Of a DNA stretch of 38,303 bases, positions 30,040 through 38,265 are shown one piece after another (position 1 is the stretch's first letter; each line of letters opens with the position of its first letter). A program made the position numbers and the translations under genes. This DNA comes from a virus: positions 1 through 38,303 of IMG/VR virus record IMGVR_UViG_3300047546_000146; one strand, written 5' to 3'. The notes beneath the pieces are model-generated. The model saw nothing but the letters and a program-made list of their open reading frames with translations, searched no databases and was not told the origin of the DNA.

Positions 30040-30255
30040 TCAGTGCATCTTAAACTTGTCAAGCAATATTCTACTTTGTATCTCAGCCATCATTGATTCT
30101 GTAGCTGATTCAGCAATAGAATGTAGCAACGCTAACATCATACGGTTTGATACTAACTTATCACTCTCAACATCCATTGTTACATAACCAGCATCATCCT
30201 TTCCTATCTTGATAGTTACGACAAGAGAATCAATCTCATCAAAGTTGGTAATCAT
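30040..30255 (-). CDS. Hypothetical protein next to the polymerase
   Basis: A 71-residue protein: a beta-like N-terminal half (SLVVTIKIGKDDAGYVTMDV) and a helical C-terminal half (MLALLHSIAESATESMMAEI). It starts in a TGATG overlap with the polymerase stop, so its translation probably depends on polymerase translation. No family recognised. Confidence 0.65.
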   Translation of the reverse strand: MITNFDEIDSLVVTIKIGKDDAGYVTMDVESDKLVSNRMMLALLHSIAESATESMMAEIQSRILLDKFKMH

Positions 30256-31895
30256 CAGTGTGTTTCCTTCCAGTTGTTTCCTACTTTGTATTCACCCGTT
30301 AGAGGACAACGTAAACCCAAGGTAACACCAGCCTTCTCAATAGCTGCTACAGCGAGTTTACCAACATCATCAGCGTACTGCTTAGGACATTCTATCTGCC
30401 ATTCATCATGGACGTTAGCCACAAAGTGTGCAGGTATCTTATGTTTCTTCAGTGACTCATGTAGGTGGATCAGACCTTGCTTCATCGAGATCGCACCAGC
30501 TCCTTGAAGTAACGTGTTAAGTGCTGCGTGTTCCGACCGTACCCATAATCGACGACCGTCAAGGGCAGGTAAATACCCCTTCTCTGCATATTTGCTAACT
30601 TTATCTTTAAGTGTCTTGAGAGCTGGCGTATTCTTAAGGAAGCGGGCGATGAGTTTCTTTCCTTCCTCGGCGCTCCCTTGAGCAATTGATCCAATCTTAG
30701 CTGGCCCTGCTCCATAGAGAAAGGCGTAGATAAACGTCTTTGCTTGCGCCCTACTCTCAAGACCAGCAGCGAGTTGGTTTTTAGTGTGGACATCCCCATT
30801 GATCACCTCCTTAGTGTACTCATCATCTTTCATGTAGTGAGCTAACATACGCAGTTCTAAGCCTGAAGCATCACAACCAACCAAGACATTACCAGGATCT
30901 ACAGTCCATACTTGTCTACATGTTTCACCATAGTCAGCATTGACAGCAGGAACCTGTGCCATGTTAGGGCTATGGTGCGTCATACGCCCTGTGACAGCAC
31001 CGTTAGTGATAACCTTACCGTGTACCCTACCATCATCAGCAACGTGTTCTAGCCACGATGTAGACTGTGCTATACGCTTCTGTATAAGTAGATACTCAGC
31101 CATTGCCTTAGCCTCTGGATAGGTTAGCTTAGACAGGATCACTTCATCAACCATTGGCTTACCTGTCTCAGTGAACTTATCAGGCTCCCAGCCTAGAGAT
31201 ATAAGTCTACGTCCTATCTGATCTCTGGAGCCTGGGTTAAACACTTCAACATGATCCTTTAGCTTCTTTCCGGTTTTCTCGCTAACACGTTCCGTAATTA
31301 TCGGTGGGAATATAGTCTGTAGGTTCTCCTCAATGTCAGATAACTTTGTCTTAAGATCAGAGACAAATGAAGTACATAGTGGTATATCAAGTTTGAATCC
31401 ATGTCTTTCCTGCTGTGCAACAATGAACTGTACCGTATGTTCGATGTCAATGCTTTGTGGTGAAAAGTCTTTCAATTCTGCACATAGTTTGCGATGAAGT
31501 TCACCAGTAAGATTGACATCTTGTATACAGTAATCAATCATCTCTTGTGTCAGAGCAGTAAAGTCTTGGAACTCAATCTTGTGATTCCCTAATCTTTTCC
31601 CCCATGCTTCTAGACTGTGACCTCCTTCGATACTGGGATTCCATAGCCTCGACAGCACGAGCGTATCGGAGGCCTTCTTGAGTGGTATCGTAATGTTCCA
31701 CAATCTCCGAAGGTGGTAACCGTCGAAGCTGATTAGATTGTGTCCGATCACTGTGTCGCAATCCTCTATAAGAGGCTTTAGTGTACTTGGATGAGTATGA
31801 CATACCACCTCACTTGTTGTCAGATCCTTCGTGACTACGCAGAAGATAACAGTCTGCTTCATGTCTGTTTCGATGTCCAGCACTAAGCTCTTCAT
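30255..31895 (-). CDS. DNA polymerase, family A (T7-like)
   Basis: Replicative polymerase with proofreading. 3'-5' exonuclease acids: D7 and E9 (LDIET), D58 (GHNLISFDGY), D126 (DYCIQD). Polymerase motifs: A at 339-350 (VGCDASGLELRM, D342), B at 382-396 (RAQAKTFIYAFLYGA; R382, K386, Y390, Y394) and C at 495-499 (VHDEW). Y390 corresponds to position 762 of E. coli Pol I, where Tyr, as in T7, is usually associated with lytic phages. At 546 residues it is about 160 shorter than T7 gp5, partly because the thioredoxin-binding loop region between residues 195 and 220 is very short. Confidence 0.96.
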   Translation of the reverse strand: MKSLVLDIETDMKQTVIFCVVTKDLTTSEVVCHTHPSTLKPLIEDCDTVIGHNLISFDGYHLRRLWNITIPLKKASDTLVLSRLWNPSIEGGHSLEAWGKRLGNHKIEFQDFTALTQEMIDYCIQDVNLTGELHRKLCAELKDFSPQSIDIEHTVQFIVAQQERHGFKLDIPLCTSFVSDLKTKLSDIEENLQTIFPPIITERVSEKTGKKLKDHVEVFNPGSRDQIGRRLISLGWEPDKFTETGKPMVDEVILSKLTYPEAKAMAEYLLIQKRIAQSTSWLEHVADDGRVHGKVITNGAVTGRMTHHSPNMAQVPAVNADYGETCRQVWTVDPGNVLVGCDASGLELRMLAHYMKDDEYTKEVINGDVHTKNQLAAGLESRAQAKTFIYAFLYGAGPAKIGSIAQGSAEEGKKLIARFLKNTPALKTLKDKVSKYAEKGYLPALDGRRLWVRSEHAALNTLLQGAGAISMKQGLIHLHESLKKHKIPAHFVANVHDEWQIECPKQYADDVGKLAVAAIEKAGVTLGLRCPLTGEYKVGNNWKETH

Positions 31896-32340: not shown

Positions 32341-32510
32341 TACGGTCTCCTGTTAGCATCTTGCATAGCCTCTACGTAGTCTGATGTTTTCCTGATCTCA
32401 TTGATAATCTCTTCAAACGAACAAACTACTTCACCCATTGTAGACCCTGTACGTATCTGCTGTAAAGCAAATCGTTTCGTATCTTCTTTCAAATCTTCAT
32501 AAGTCTTCAT
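32340..32510 (-). CDS. Small helical protein after the primase-helicase
   Basis: A 56-residue helical protein (TYEDLKEDTKRFALQQIRTG, then SFEEIINEIRKTSDYVEAM). The frame stays open far upstream, inside the primase-helicase gene, but ATG at 32510 fits best: GAGG lies about nine bases before it and it only overlaps the helicase end by 14 bases. Function unknown. Confidence 0.62.
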   Translation of the reverse strand: MKTYEDLKEDTKRFALQQIRTGSTMGEVVCSFEEIINEIRKTSDYVEAMQDANRRP

Positions 32511-34104
32511 CTTGTGTGACCTCTGATAACCTTCCTGTTGAGTGGCTGTAATAGACGTTACAGGCTGGACCTGTGACACCGCTGAAACGGTTCTTGAGTA
32601 CCCTAATCCTGGTGGTATTGCGTTCACGTTCATCATCATGCTGTGCATTCCTTTCCATACCGATCACCATATCAGACAACTGTGCAATGCTACCAGATCC
32701 TCTAAGCTGACCTAGTGAAGTAGCTGCTCCTTCTTCATGGCCTTTACCATCAGGTCTCTTAAGATGGCTGACAATCAACAGTGCTATACCTGTCTCCTGA
32801 ACAATCATCCTAAGCTTGGTCATGATCTCATCTAATGCTTTACGTTCATCGCCAACATCGCCAGAACTGACGACAATACTAATATGATCCAACACAACAA
32901 AGCTACATCCGAGTCCTTTAGCCATGAATCTGACTCTTGATAGTATGTTGTCAATTGATGTACTCCCAAAATGATCAAAAAGATAAACCCTATTAGTGCC
33001 AAGAGTGTGCTCGAAGGCATCTCTAAACTCCTCATCAGTGTACGCTGTGTCAGGTAGATGTAGTGGTTTGTTCGCATGGATAGACATGATACCTTTGGCA
33101 GTGCGAACAGTAGACTCCTCCAAGAACATTAATCCTATGTTGTCATCAGTCTTACATAAGATATGGTATACGATCTCCCTAAGCACCTGTGATTTACCCA
33201 GTCCAGAACCTGCTGTAAACGTCACCAGCTCACCTTTACGGATGCCGTAGGTCAAAGCATTAAGGCCTTGCCAGGGATAGTCACAAGAGGCTTTAATGGC
33301 TGGTGTGTTGATCTCTTCCCAAAGCTTTGATCCTTCGATGATCCCATCAGGTACATAGACTTCAGCAGCGAACCAGTCCTGGATGTACTCCTTGATCATC
33401 TCATCTTTGAGATAATCGTTAGCATCCTTGTGTGGTTGTCTGTGCTTTACTATCTTAGCCTTAGCACCGAACAGATCAGCTACCTTCGTAGCAGCTTGCT
33501 TACCAACTTCATCAGCATCAAAGCTGATAACAATGGTTTCAAAAGAGTCAAGATATTCATAGTTGTCCTTACAGTCCTTAATTGCTGATTGTGCTCCATT
33601 GCGTATGCTTACTACTGGATACCGCATACCATTCATTTGATAAACAGCAACAGCATCAAACTCACCTTCAGTGATGGTAATGCTCTTACCTCCTTTAGGG
33701 AATAAATGCTGTCCGAACAAAGTAGCCTTAGACCAATCACCTTTGATAGTGCAATCAGTCTTCATTGCATCATGTCTTACCTTGTATGCAGTGACCTTAC
33801 CATCAGCATCGCAGTAGGGAAAAGCTACACCACCCTCATCAGTGATCATCACACCAAAGGCTTTTAAGGCATCTCTGGATAAGTTTCTTAGCGGTATAGA
33901 CTGATACTTACCATCTAACATTGGAATCACCTTAGCAGACTTTGTATGCTTTTGTCTGAAGTTATCATCATGTTCAGACATTTTAGTGTTCGTACCACAA
34001 GCAAAACAATGTGACCAAGTCTCTCCTTTATCATTAACAGATACGGACAACGCATCACTAGATCCACAATCATCGCAGCCAACATGCGTGGCTAAATAGT
34101 TCAC
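32497..34104 (-). CDS. Primase-helicase, T7 gp4-like
   Basis: Bifunctional replication protein. The N-terminal zinc finger uses C10, C13, C33 and C36. The TOPRIM primase shows TITEGEFDAVAVYQ (E146) and ISFDADEVG (D196, D198). The RecA-like helicase has Walker A GSGLGKS (299-305), catalytic FLEES region near 328-332 and Walker B FVVLDH (402-407). The C-terminus is acidic (QDEDL), the type of tail that binds polymerase. The start is GTG, with AAGGAG eight bases upstream. Length 535 is near that of T7 gp4 (566). Confidence 0.95.
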   Translation of the reverse strand: MNYLATHVGCDDCGSSDALSVSVNDKGETWSHCFACGTNTKMSEHDDNFRQKHTKSAKVIPMLDGKYQSIPLRNLSRDALKAFGVMITDEGGVAFPYCDADGKVTAYKVRHDAMKTDCTIKGDWSKATLFGQHLFPKGGKSITITEGEFDAVAVYQMNGMRYPVVSIRNGAQSAIKDCKDNYEYLDSFETIVISFDADEVGKQAATKVADLFGAKAKIVKHRQPHKDANDYLKDEMIKEYIQDWFAAEVYVPDGIIEGSKLWEEINTPAIKASCDYPWQGLNALTYGIRKGELVTFTAGSGLGKSQVLREIVYHILCKTDDNIGLMFLEESTVRTAKGIMSIHANKPLHLPDTAYTDEEFRDAFEHTLGTNRVYLFDHFGSTSIDNILSRVRFMAKGLGCSFVVLDHISIVVSSGDVGDERKALDEIMTKLRMIVQETGIALLIVSHLKRPDGKGHEEGAATSLGQLRGSGSIAQLSDMVIGMERNAQHDDERERNTTRIRVLKNRFSGVTGPACNVYYSHSTGRLSEVTQDEDL

Positions 34105-34595: not shown

Positions 34596-34877
34596 TTACC
34601 TCAGATTAAAAGGGTTATGCCAACAGATACCAGTGTTGTCCCTGGTGTTGTATCCGCCTAGTGAGTACGATATCAAGTATTGATGATCATCCTTCCTAAT
34701 ATCCCTATCAACAGTGTAGTTATCAACTAACTTAGACATAGAGTCTCTGATCTGCTTAGAGGTCTTGTTAGGGAATGCCTCTAGGAGGTCTTCTAAGGTA
34801 GCATGGCGGCCATGATTCTCTAGGTAGGCTACGTAGGGGTTAACCTTACGCTTGCGTGGCTGTATACGCTTTCTCAT
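34596..34877 (-). CDS. Small protein, possible winged-helix DNA binder
   Basis: A 93-residue basic protein. RKRIQPRKRKVNPYVAYL is followed by HATLEDLLEAFPNKTSKQ and IRDSMSKLVDNYTVDRD, which reads like a helix-turn-helix with a following wing. It may bind DNA near the repeat element at 35.1 kb, but that is a guess from proximity. It starts in an ATGA overlap. Confidence 0.58.
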   Translation of the reverse strand: MRKRIQPRKRKVNPYVAYLENHGRHATLEDLLEAFPNKTSKQIRDSMSKLVDNYTVDRDIRKDDHQYLISYSLGGYNTRDNTGICWHNPFNLR

Positions 34878-35065
34878 ACGTTGAACCCTTTAGCGTTCAG
34901 AGCCTTAGTAAGTTGTCTCATCATAAAGTAAAACCCATACTCTTGACATAAGCGAACAAAACGATTTAACACATCATTGATGTTGTGATCTTCGTGCATA
35001 TCATCATACTCACCTTTAGTGTAATCAAAGGCTTCTTCAGGTAAAAATTCATCGTCAGGGTACAT
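34874..35065 (-). CDS. Small acidic protein, unknown
   Basis: A 63-residue protein: acidic N-terminus (PDDEFLPEEAFDYTKGEYDD) and a helical C-terminus (RFVRLCQEYGFYFMMRQLTK). ATG at 35065 is preferred over TTG at 35074 because AAGGA is nine bases upstream of it. It is the first gene below the inverted repeat and iteron element, so it would be the first product of any promoter there. Confidence 0.62.
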   Translation of the reverse strand: MYPDDEFLPEEAFDYTKGEYDDMHEDHNINDVLNRFVRLCQEYGFYFMMRQLTKALNAKGFNV

Positions 35066-35099
35066 TTCGAACAATCCTTATGTTAAGCCCTACTGTACA

Positions 35100-35196
35100 T
35101 AGGCTAAATAGGCTAAGTACTAAGTATATATTAAATATTATACATAGTATATACTTAGTACATAGCCTAAGTAGCCTAAGTAGCCTACATAGCCTA
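35100..35196. repeat. 9-bp iterons around a 14-bp inverted repeat: candidate origin or regulated promoter
   Basis: GTACTAAGTATATA (35117-35130) and its perfect reverse complement (35148-35161) flank a 17-base AT-only-like loop. Outside the stem, TAGGCTA occurs at 35100 and 35109, and the reverse complement TAGCCTA at 35163, 35172, 35181 and 35190, each step exactly 9 bp. The stem plus innermost repeats extend the match to about 23 bases per arm with few mismatches. A perfect TATAAT on the minus strand (35142-35137) sits in the loop, but no good -35 box is placed for it. No coding gene spans it. Confidence 0.85.
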
Positions 35197-35235
35197 TATA
35201 GATTTAGGGTATCAGAGAAAAACAAAGTTGTCAAG

Positions 35236-35624: not shown

Positions 35625-35690
35625 AGAATACCCTCTAGAATCGATTAAAACGGGCCTAGAAGCGATTATCTAGGCTAGGGTGGCACCTAC

Positions 35691-36357: not shown

Positions 36358-36678
36358 TTAATCCCCTGATAGGTCAACAATGGGGTTGATAACGTACTCT
36401 GCAAGCTCACTACGGTCTGCCCATTCTTCAGCATCGAATAGTGTATTGAACCTATCCATATGAGTTAAACCATCATAAAATAGTTTGTACGTTACCAGAT
36501 AACCGACAATCTTAAAGTTTTCCATTAGATTACCCATCAAAATTTTCTTAAGGAAAGGTATAGCTAAACCAGTTAAGTTTGAAAGCTCTTTTAACGTCAT
36601 GTTAGGGTTATTATCATATATACGCTTGATATCCTCAAAGGTTAAACCATTGATAGGCTTTTTAAGGGTATAGGCCAT
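36358..36678 (-). CDS. HTH-like protein, possible regulator
   Basis: A 106-residue protein. LTFEDIKRIYDNNPNMTLKE then LSNLTGLAIPFLKKILMG (about residues 12-50) has the shape of a helix-turn-helix, with a beta-rich C-terminal half (FKIVGYLVTYKLFYDG). ATG at 36678 is chosen because AAGGA is eight bases upstream and two bases separate it from the stop of the upstream gene; an in-frame extension upstream overlaps that gene and is unlikely. A transcription factor is suggested, not shown. Confidence 0.6.
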   Translation of the reverse strand: MAYTLKKPINGLTFEDIKRIYDNNPNMTLKELSNLTGLAIPFLKKILMGNLMENFKIVGYLVTYKLFYDGLTHMDRFNTLFDAEEWADRSELAEYVINPIVDLSGD

Positions 36679-36679
36679 G

Positions 36680-37348
36680 TTAATGTTCCTTGAATGCAAT
36701 GGGTTTGGTAGTGGACCAGCAAAGCGCACATGTCATGCAAGATTGTGTTTTGCCAGTTTGTTCAGGGCACTGGATGCCTTCGCCGTTAACGTTAGCAGAC
36801 ATGATACCGCCTTTGTCACTGAATCTAATCCATGCCCTGCTATTCTGTAAACCTGAGCGGATAACATCCATAATGTCTTGCTCGGACCTATGGGTATAAC
36901 CGAAGATTCTAAGTGCAGGGTATTCTAGCAATGCGTCAACCCAATACTGAGCATATGCTGCACTGAAGAAGTCGCCTAGAATGTGCAAGCGTACAACAAA
37001 GCCTTCAGGGTGTACAGTAGACAAGTGCAAAAGCTCATCGGACAATCTAAGCATGAGTAGCTCGGGATCATCCGGCTTGATACGATGCGCAAATGCCATG
37101 TTATTACCAAAGCAGTTAGCCCATTGCTGGCAAGTGCGCGAACATGTGGACCTTTCTTCGAGTGTAAGGGAATACACCGGAAAACCCTTCCATGCGCCTT
37201 TGGTAATGGTTTTGCTACCATTGCCAAGCTTATCATTGTAGGATACTGGCTTAAGTAACCTATGCTCATAGTCGGACACCATACGTACGGTTTTCTTGTG
37301 TATCGTAATGGCTTGAGACAATGCAGTATGATCCGCACGTAGTCGCAT
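36680..37348 (-). CDS. Gp88-like Cys-rich protein
   Basis: A 222-residue protein. An N-terminal KTITKGAWKGFPVYSLTL is followed by a cysteine set C-x3-C-x5-C (residues 69, 73, 79: TCSRTCQQWANCFG), the phrases VVRLHILGDFFSAAY and IFGYTHRS, and a C-terminal C-x9-C-x2-C-x2-C (QSCMTCALCWS). I associate this with the 'gene product 88' family of phages, of unknown function. The metal-ligand cysteines could hold zinc or an iron-sulphur cluster. ATG at 37348 is chosen: GGAGG lies five bases upstream. An 8-bp inverted repeat lies in its leader. Confidence 0.72.
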   Translation of the reverse strand: MRLRADHTALSQAITIHKKTVRMVSDYEHRLLKPVSYNDKLGNGSKTITKGAWKGFPVYSLTLEERSTCSRTCQQWANCFGNNMAFAHRIKPDDPELLMLRLSDELLHLSTVHPEGFVVRLHILGDFFSAAYAQYWVDALLEYPALRIFGYTHRSEQDIMDVIRSGLQNSRAWIRFSDKGGIMSANVNGEGIQCPEQTGKTQSCMTCALCWSTTKPIAFKEH

Positions 37349-37374
37349 GATAACCTCCATAAAGTTTACTTTGC

Positions 37375-37399
37375 ATAGTACCCTCGTTGAAGGTACTAT
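37375..37399. promoter_or_regulatory. 8-bp inverted repeat upstream of the gp88-like gene
   Basis: ATAGTACC (37375-37382) and GGTACTAT (37392-37399) are perfect inverted copies separated by nine bases. It lies 27 bases above the ATG at 37348 and between this gene and the one at 37412. It may be an operator or an RNA hairpin; no U tract follows on either strand. Confidence 0.5.
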
Positions 37400-37411
37400 A
37401 CACTGCATACT

Positions 37412-37633
37412 TTACTTGAAGCTGGTAACCCTGTCATGCCTGATAAATCCGATGTTAGTATTGTAGACTGTCACGTCGCCACGGTATGGCACCCTGATTA
37501 CGCTTTTGATGATCCCCCGCTTCATGATGATCCCGTTGATTCTGCCATGCCTGCTGTACGCTGTTACGAAGCGGGTTGATGTGGTTTTCTTGACCTTGTT
37601 TACGAGGATCAGTGATTTGATGAAGTCTAGCAT
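37412..37633 (-). CDS. First gene of the leftward arm: small basic protein
   Basis: A 73-residue basic protein (MLDFIKSLILVNKVKKTTST, then RFVTAYSRHGRINGI and IRVPYRGDVTVYNTNIGF). It looks like a small beta-rich fold with a helical start. ATG at 37633 has AGGGG seven bases upstream; an in-frame ATG at 37684 falls at the predicted transcription start and is rejected. As the first gene after the divergent region it is probably early. Not recognised. Confidence 0.6.
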   Translation of the reverse strand: MLDFIKSLILVNKVKKTTSTRFVTAYSRHGRINGIIMKRGIIKSVIRVPYRGDVTVYNTNIGFIRHDRVTSFK

Positions 37634-37755: not shown

Positions 37756-37877
37756 CTGTCAAGTACCACTTGTCAGCTAGACTATGCCGTTCATCGGCTA
37801 GACTATGCCGTTCATCAGTGACATCGCTATAGATACTGAGCTGACAGACGGTAGTTTTACGCTGACAAACGGCATAG
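37756..37877. repeat. 21-bp-spaced repeats in the divergent region
   Basis: GCTAGACTATGCCGTTCATC occurs twice, at 37776 and 37797, exactly 21 bp apart. CTGACA.ACGG occurs twice, at 37841 and 37862, again 21 bp apart. The core CTATGCCGTT of the first pair reappears as its reverse complement at 37868-37877. TGTCA also occurs at 37757 and 37771. A spacing of two helical turns on one face of DNA suggests a row of protein-binding sites such as operators or an origin. Confidence 0.8.
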
Positions 37878-38070
37878 GGGGAGGGGTAACAATGTTGTTC
37901 TAGCGTAGTAGCACCACAATAGCCTCAAAAAAAGCTAAAAAGTAAGTTGTTAATGATAATCCATTACTATTAAGAAATCTCTTAAGAATCAATAGGTTAT
38001 CTATAAAGCCTCTGCGGAGCCTATGACACCATGTTAATGGAGTCCCGCTAAAGCCTTGATTGCTGTGTAG

Positions 38071-38141: not shown

Positions 38142-38171
38142 TTTACAACAATAGCATTTGTATGTTACAAT
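38142..38171 (+). promoter_or_regulatory. Sigma70-like promoter for the terminase operon
   Basis: TTTACA (38142-38147), 18 bases, TACAAT (38166-38171), each five of six consensus. The flank GTCAAGACACTTTACAACAA matches the promoter at 8798-8827 at nearly every position. Across the circular junction it points at the small terminase gene with a leader of about 150 bases containing the GC hairpin. Confidence 0.7.
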
Positions 38172-38265
38172 AAGTCCTTCTATGTAGGCTATGAACAAAA
38201 CATCGTATAAAAACTAAATAATAGTAGACATATAACTTATCGTCATACACTACATTGTAGATACA

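Follow-up and report, generated by a model that had tools for sequence, protein, structure and literature searches.

A conserved array of TAG-N-CTA heptamers in the replication-operon leader of an uncultured phage group, a putative operator

Short repeats at a fixed step close to the replication genes of a phage raise the question of whether they mark an origin of replication, a site for a regulatory protein or a structured part of a transcript. Such repeats lie at 35100-35196 of the window, i.e. the whole virus record of 38,303 bp analysed here, and the preliminary description of the locus had offered three functions for them: a replication origin, an autoregulated promoter of the replication genes, or the binding site of small HTH-like or basic proteins encoded nearby. 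The record has a 38-bp end repeat and thus corresponds to a circle of 38,265 bp, the first 24 kb of which carry rightward genes; those for replication and nucleotides begin at about 37.7 kb and point leftward. It belongs to a group of uncultured tailed phages that is found in many metagenomes and has no close cultured relative. Its DNA polymerase (30255-31895) shares less than 50% identity with polymerases of cultured Pelagibacter and Roseobacter phages, and searches for cultured-phage homologues of the array region, the 34596-34877 protein and the 36358-36678 protein returned none.

Geometry and position of the array

On the strand as recorded, two copies of TAGGCTA (35100-35106 and 35109-35115) face four copies of TAGCCTA (35163-35169, 35172-35178, 35181-35187 and 35190-35196), with a step of exactly 9 bp inside each group and 54 bp from the start of the last TAGGCTA to that of the first TAGCCTA. 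Between the groups are the two arms of a perfect 14-bp inverted repeat, GTACTAAGTATATA (35117-35130, promoter-distal) and TATATACTTAGTAC (35148-35161, promoter-proximal), which enclose a 17-bp AT-rich spacer (35131-35147). In heptamer positions, 9-bp steps and perfect inverted repeat the preliminary description is borne out by the sequence, but its emphasis on opposed orientations was misplaced: as TAG-N-CTA is palindromic, the two "orientations" differ solely in the centre base. In transcript sense, i.e. leftward, the locus thus reads as a promoter-proximal array of four TAGGCTA units (35163-35196) and a promoter-distal array of two TAGCCTA units (35100-35115). The entire array can also be described as one imperfect inverted repeat (35096-35138 and 35140-35182, 84% complementary), and no other 48-bp stretch of the genome is as AT-rich as 35118-35165 (40/48).

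The array is not a product of chance. When the window was shuffled 300 times with its dinucleotides kept, no 97-bp segment contained more than two TAG[G/C]CTA, as against the six observed, and a tandem TAGNCTA pair with a 9-bp step arose in a single one of the 300 shuffles. Moreover, CTANNTAGNCTANNTAG with up to two mismatches has 18 matches where 2.85 are expected. Genome-wide, TAGNCTA as such is not enriched (18 versus 14.7 expected).

Directly upstream of the array a sigma70-like promoter, TTGACA-17-TACCCT, points leftward (35234-35206), with its -35 element TTGACA at 35229-35234 and, across a 17-bp spacer, an extended -10 element TGATACCCT at 35206-35214. A promoter pattern scan misses it, since its -10 element fits only three of six consensus positions. 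The promoter is conserved in both lineages of relatives described below, in the form TTGACA-N17-TACCCT with an upstream TG, and is then followed by AAATCTATATAGGCTATG in nearly all of them. Transcription from it would start at about 35199 and the predicted leader up to the ATG at 35065 comprises 134 nt; given the location of the promoter, the array is predicted to lie within the transcribed leader of the primase-helicase/polymerase operon and not upstream of its promoter. The leftward genes that follow are operon gene 1 (34874-35065, ribosome site AAGGA at 35079-35075), which encodes a small acidic protein and adjoins the array in relatives whose contig extends that far, operon gene 2 (34596-34877), which encodes a 93-aa predicted winged-helix DNA-binding protein, and the DNA primase/helicase gene (32497-34104; PHROG 239, E 7e-178).

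A TATAAT in the loop, to which the preliminary description had drawn attention, is indeed present, on the leftward strand within the spacer. It is, however, not a conserved promoter element, because the scan yielded no fitting -35 for it and some relatives have it the other way round; we therefore rejected it as a promoter. No intrinsic terminator, i.e. a G+C-rich stem followed by a U run, was called at 35100-35196. An intrinsic-terminator-like hairpin is located at 35654-35675 on the leftward strand, between the upstream leftward genes and the array promoter, and its sequence is kept in most relatives.

Relatives in two lineages and a second promoter

A pattern scan for three tandem units returned 52 contigs. 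In 48 of these, all of them viral contigs other than the window and none a cultured phage, the array stands at the matching place, beside the same leftward genes. The geometry, which the preliminary description had proposed to look for in close relatives with the same gene order, is thus present there. A scan for the promoter-proximal end gave 69 contigs and from these 46 distinct complete leaders, which fall into two types. Type I (34 distinct leaders) has three to seven proximal and two distal units, the proximal number being three in most relatives, four in the window and seven in L040, always at 9-bp steps. Type II (12 distinct leaders), from a sister lineage, has the outermost unit alone on each side, mostly 74-76 bp apart, and retains both the promoter and the long hairpin, the latter with a perfect 18-bp terminal stem. 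In distant relatives, the polymerases of which are 55-63% identical, both the neighbouring genes and the array are missing, and upstream of their primase no equivalent leader hairpin stood out.

Within the 34 distinct multi-unit leaders one of 30 TAG/CTA positions is polymorphic, as compared with four of five centres (Fisher p = 0.0005), and the centre base of the distal heptamers is A, T or C in relatives. Judged by these alignments, the outer six bases of the heptamer are held and its centre is free. On the evidence of sequence comparison we regard the array as a real and conserved control leader of the replication operon, the function of which we infer.

The element that would start the array transcript recurs at a second promoter of the window, a rightward TTTACA-18-TACAAT followed by CTATGTAGGCTATG (38142-38193, plus strand). 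CTAT[A/G]TAGGCTATG also begins the rightward transcript of the type I lineage, and no hairpin is evident there. Among 43 distinct readable type I loci, the rightward promoter has CTATGTAGGCTATG in 37, and TAGACTATG is found in one more; TAGGCTA is missing from six of the 43, five of which have AAACxATGA and one TAGACTA. The latter is L036, i.e. the heptamer centre can change at the rightward start, too. All 14 type II loci have CTATGTAGAAACGATG at this place, a count from which L024 and L054, which had been scored as type II and have the type I rightward element, were left out as their leaders are cut by the contig end. Since the association between array type and rightward element is partly a matter of lineage, it argues only weakly for a coupling of the two sites.

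Two further features of the rightward region may be mentioned. The core of the promoter has two versions, TTTACA-18-TACAAT and TTGACA-17-TAGAAT, swapped before a common CTATGTAG start, and upstream of it, at 38013-38056 and in relatives, a block GCCTCTGCGGAGCCTATGACACCATGTTAATGGAGTCCCGC that has a CTCTGCGGAG palindrome is conserved where the adjoining sequence diverges.

A putative operator and its candidate binder

Of the functions offered initially, an autoregulated promoter with a site for a small protein fits best, because the array lies between a sigma70-like promoter and gene 1 and the 34596-34877 protein is a predicted winged helix. We thus tentatively favour, with a confidence that stays somewhat below even, an operator array that serves autoregulation of the replication operon, with the winged-helix protein as its most likely binder. 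Host RNA polymerase would start at the sigma70-type promoter, near 35199; the tandem TAG-N-CTA operator would lie in the first few transcribed bases, with its 9-bp steps, and would continue beyond the AT-rich inverted repeat. The product of gene 2 is the most likely candidate for a phage DNA-binding protein that may then occupy the palindromic units side by side and, when abundant, repress its own promoter through a block of start or escape. The long hairpin would partly be a by-product of palindromic units standing in phase about a centre, with arms homogenised by template switching during replication, and may add effects at the RNA level.

Several observations are in line with an operator. 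As TAG/CTA is held and the centre is free, the unit appears to behave like a protein site; additionally, the position of the array, its varying copy number, the heptamer at the rightward promoter without an evident hairpin and the winged-helix neighbour point in the same direction. Against it, type II has the outermost pair alone in the leader and no heptamer at the rightward promoter, and the multi-unit array is therefore not essential. Furthermore, the six type I rightward promoters without TAGGCTA, the strong RNA hairpins formed by all leaders and the incomplete match between array types and winged-helix types (see below) do not favour an operator. Two outlying heptamers were rejected as further operators: the isolated TAGGCTA at 35671 belongs to the terminator-like stem at 35654-35675, and the copy at 34825 is part of a perfect TAGGCTA-containing 17-mer (34820-34836) inside the 34596 gene, where synonymous constraint is no greater than in the remainder of that gene, which also speaks against an operator.

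The AlphaFold2 model of the 34596-34877 protein has a helix-helix-helix-strand-strand topology (pLDDT 75), and its best Foldseek matches are winged helices, i.e. Stf76 of pSSVx, YodB and HxlR/MarR types, with a probability of about 1.00, but with E-values of 0.0075 or worse, all above 0.001. The modelled fold is thus likely to be a winged helix. The protein constantly accompanies the array in relatives, where type I array loci carry winged-helix type A in 48 cases, B in four and C in one, and type II loci carry B in 28 and A in four, i.e. array type and winged-helix sequence type match mostly, but not strictly. The second candidate named at the outset, the protein encoded at 36358-36678, fared less well: its HTH part is found at only seven of the 59 multi-unit loci and at six of 36 single-pair loci (some contigs stop short of the gene, and many that reach that far lack the HTH part), so that it is unlikely to be the general partner of the array. 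In the window this ORF is a fusion of a 49-aa HTH-like protein and a 55-aa protein (MENFKIVGYL...), which are separate genes in L038, L035 and L176.

The binder could also be encoded by the host, its site being carried by unrelated phages as well, and three TAGGCTA at 9-bp steps do occur in an unrelated group of contigs (L013, L030 and L041) and in L044. However, control heptamers of the same design gave 38 and four contigs in the same collection, and the four unrelated contigs thus represent background; matches in bacterial genomes are, moreover, scattered over many taxa. We consider a shared host factor extremely improbable and rejected it. The triplets in L013 (3598-3700), L030 (7646-7670) and L041 (1359-1383) have the form TAGGCTAT(G/T) at 9-bp steps in non-coding DNA of unrelated phages; their number is that of the background, yet the site is common to the three contigs.

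Known operators offer partial parallels. Those of the MetJ/omega type, which are bound by ribbon-helix-helix proteins, consist of 7-8 bp boxes at a fixed short step and in variable copy number. The array is alike in all these respects, but it differs in sequence, has a step of 9 bp and has a candidate binder that is modelled as a winged helix and not as a ribbon-helix-helix protein. Presumably, the array also resembles the Cox boxes of phage P2. For phage 186, one account describes Apl as binding direct repeats between pR and pL (PMC7498355). The array shares with sites of this kind the tandem short repeats, the location in an early phage promoter region and, as a candidate, a small phage-encoded DNA-binding protein, whereas the Apl sites are spaced by one helical turn and the unit described here is palindromic and lies downstream of its promoter. 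Helical-turn spacing (10-11 bp) is not found in the relatives either, the step being 9 bp in every array. If the 34596-34877 protein binds, both operator unit and geometry would be new. In any case, the array is a precise and conserved control site, open to experimental test, at the replication genes of these uncultured phages.

Leader hairpin, template switching and the origin question

Alternatively, the leader may act as RNA. A long 5' hairpin in which almost all bases are paired might stabilise the mRNA, serve as RNase III substrate or control translation of the first gene, and the heptamers would merely be stem sequence. A stable hairpin is indeed predicted downstream of the putative transcription start: strong folds are obtained for each of the 46 distinct leaders (-29 to -52 kcal/mol; z = -4.3 for the window leader), even the divergent type II leaders still make their terminal stem near the predicted start, and in the pairs of the type I consensus stem C-to-T changes that keep G-U account for 16 cells versus two that are mismatched. 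As in structured 5' leaders that stabilise mRNA or are processed by RNase III, the long stem is placed at the extreme 5' end of an operon transcript. Unlike these, it is built of TAG-N-CTA units, the opposite centre bases of which are often unpaired (G opposite A) and omitted as columns from the consensus structure, and it has no Rfam family at gathering score, a search of the region giving only sub-threshold microRNA-like hairpin scores. Moreover, the rightward start has the heptamer but no evident hairpin, two leaders (L012 and L034) have two to three uncompensated inner-stem changes, and stem changes are mostly one-sided, to G-U pairs. A role as RNA, alone or in addition to protein binding, is possible; as the main explanation we hold it to be doubtful.

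How the stem came to be paired bears on this point. Template switching between inverted repeats is documented to lead to arm homogenisation and spacer inversion (PMC8604942; PMC8794818), and it can maintain stem pairing without selection. Both outcomes are seen here: the spacer at 35131-35147 has the opposite orientation in three types of leader (L007/L061, L036/L043 and L170), and in L170 the 5' arm is a copy of the 3' arm. By analogy, we read the inverted spacers and homogenised arms as the signature of template switching. The likeness to the quasi-palindromes of PMC8604942 extends to complete spacer inversion between near-perfect arms, although those have short spacers and lie in yeast coding DNA, while the spacer here has 17 bp, the arms 14 bp and the setting is a phage control region. 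As template switching yields such products, long-term pairing alone is no proof of a selected hairpin, and we judged a covariation-based proof of RNA structure unsafe. In L040 (12533-12593) the proximal array has grown to seven TAGGCTA units, which fits slippage by 9 bp.

The same processes might even suffice, i.e. the AT-rich hairpin may be a neutral quasi-palindrome that grows, flips and homogenises via slippage and template switching, the promoter being the only functional part. The flipped spacers, the copied arm and the unit expansion are what such a neutral history would leave, by mechanisms that are in part documented (PMC8604942). It would, however, not account for the much stronger conservation of TAG/CTA positions as compared with the centres, nor for promoter and hairpin being retained in two diverged lineages, and we regard it as improbable. 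Whatever the function, the two lineages, copy-number variants, flipped spacers and homogenised hairpin constitute a natural series on how template switching reshapes a regulatory element.

Finally, the array may be an origin. The promoter transcript could prime leading-strand synthesis in the AT-rich stretch, as at a T7-type origin, with the heptamers as iterons bound by an initiator. The T7 primary origin is a promoter followed by an AT-rich region, and iteron origins in general are direct repeats beside an AT-rich stretch. Both anatomies are found here: a promoter is followed within about 35 bp by the 48-bp stretch of highest AT content in the genome, upstream of the primase-helicase gene as in T7, and direct repeats border this putative unwinding region. 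In contrast to the T7 origin, the promoter is of the sigma70-like host type and not one of a phage single-subunit RNA polymerase, which was also not noticed among the leftward-arm ORFs of the ORF list, and the inverted repeat and the heptamers are additions. Also against an origin, the leftward-arm proteins that were scanned include no recognisable Rep-like initiator, 34596-34877 being a lone winged helix beside the array, and the sister lineage has one heptamer per side. The GC-skew turn proposed as a check is absent at 35.1 kb; the cumulative skew has its extremes at the arm junctions (33, the minimum, and 24,059 of the circle), a result that is confounded by strand-biased coding. An origin at the array is thus possible by analogy, but clearly unlikely. 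Operator and origin might also be combined: the winged-helix protein could coat the 9-bp-pitch TAG-N-CTA units over a flippable inverted repeat and thereby couple shut-off of the operon to transcription-primed origin opening, which we deem very improbable and which, if true, would be a previously undescribed phage control element.

Two other elements were observed elsewhere in the window. A second strong hairpin at 37338-37448 on the leftward strand (about -41 kcal/mol, z about -6), with the arms GTACTAT/ATAGTACC, is located directly upstream of a GP88-like gene (36680-37360) and is possibly another leader element. Two 21-bp direct repeats of the CGGCTAGACTATGCCGTTCAT type at 37773-37818, which contain TAGACTA and have CGGCATAG-type pieces close by, may be a separate regulatory site.
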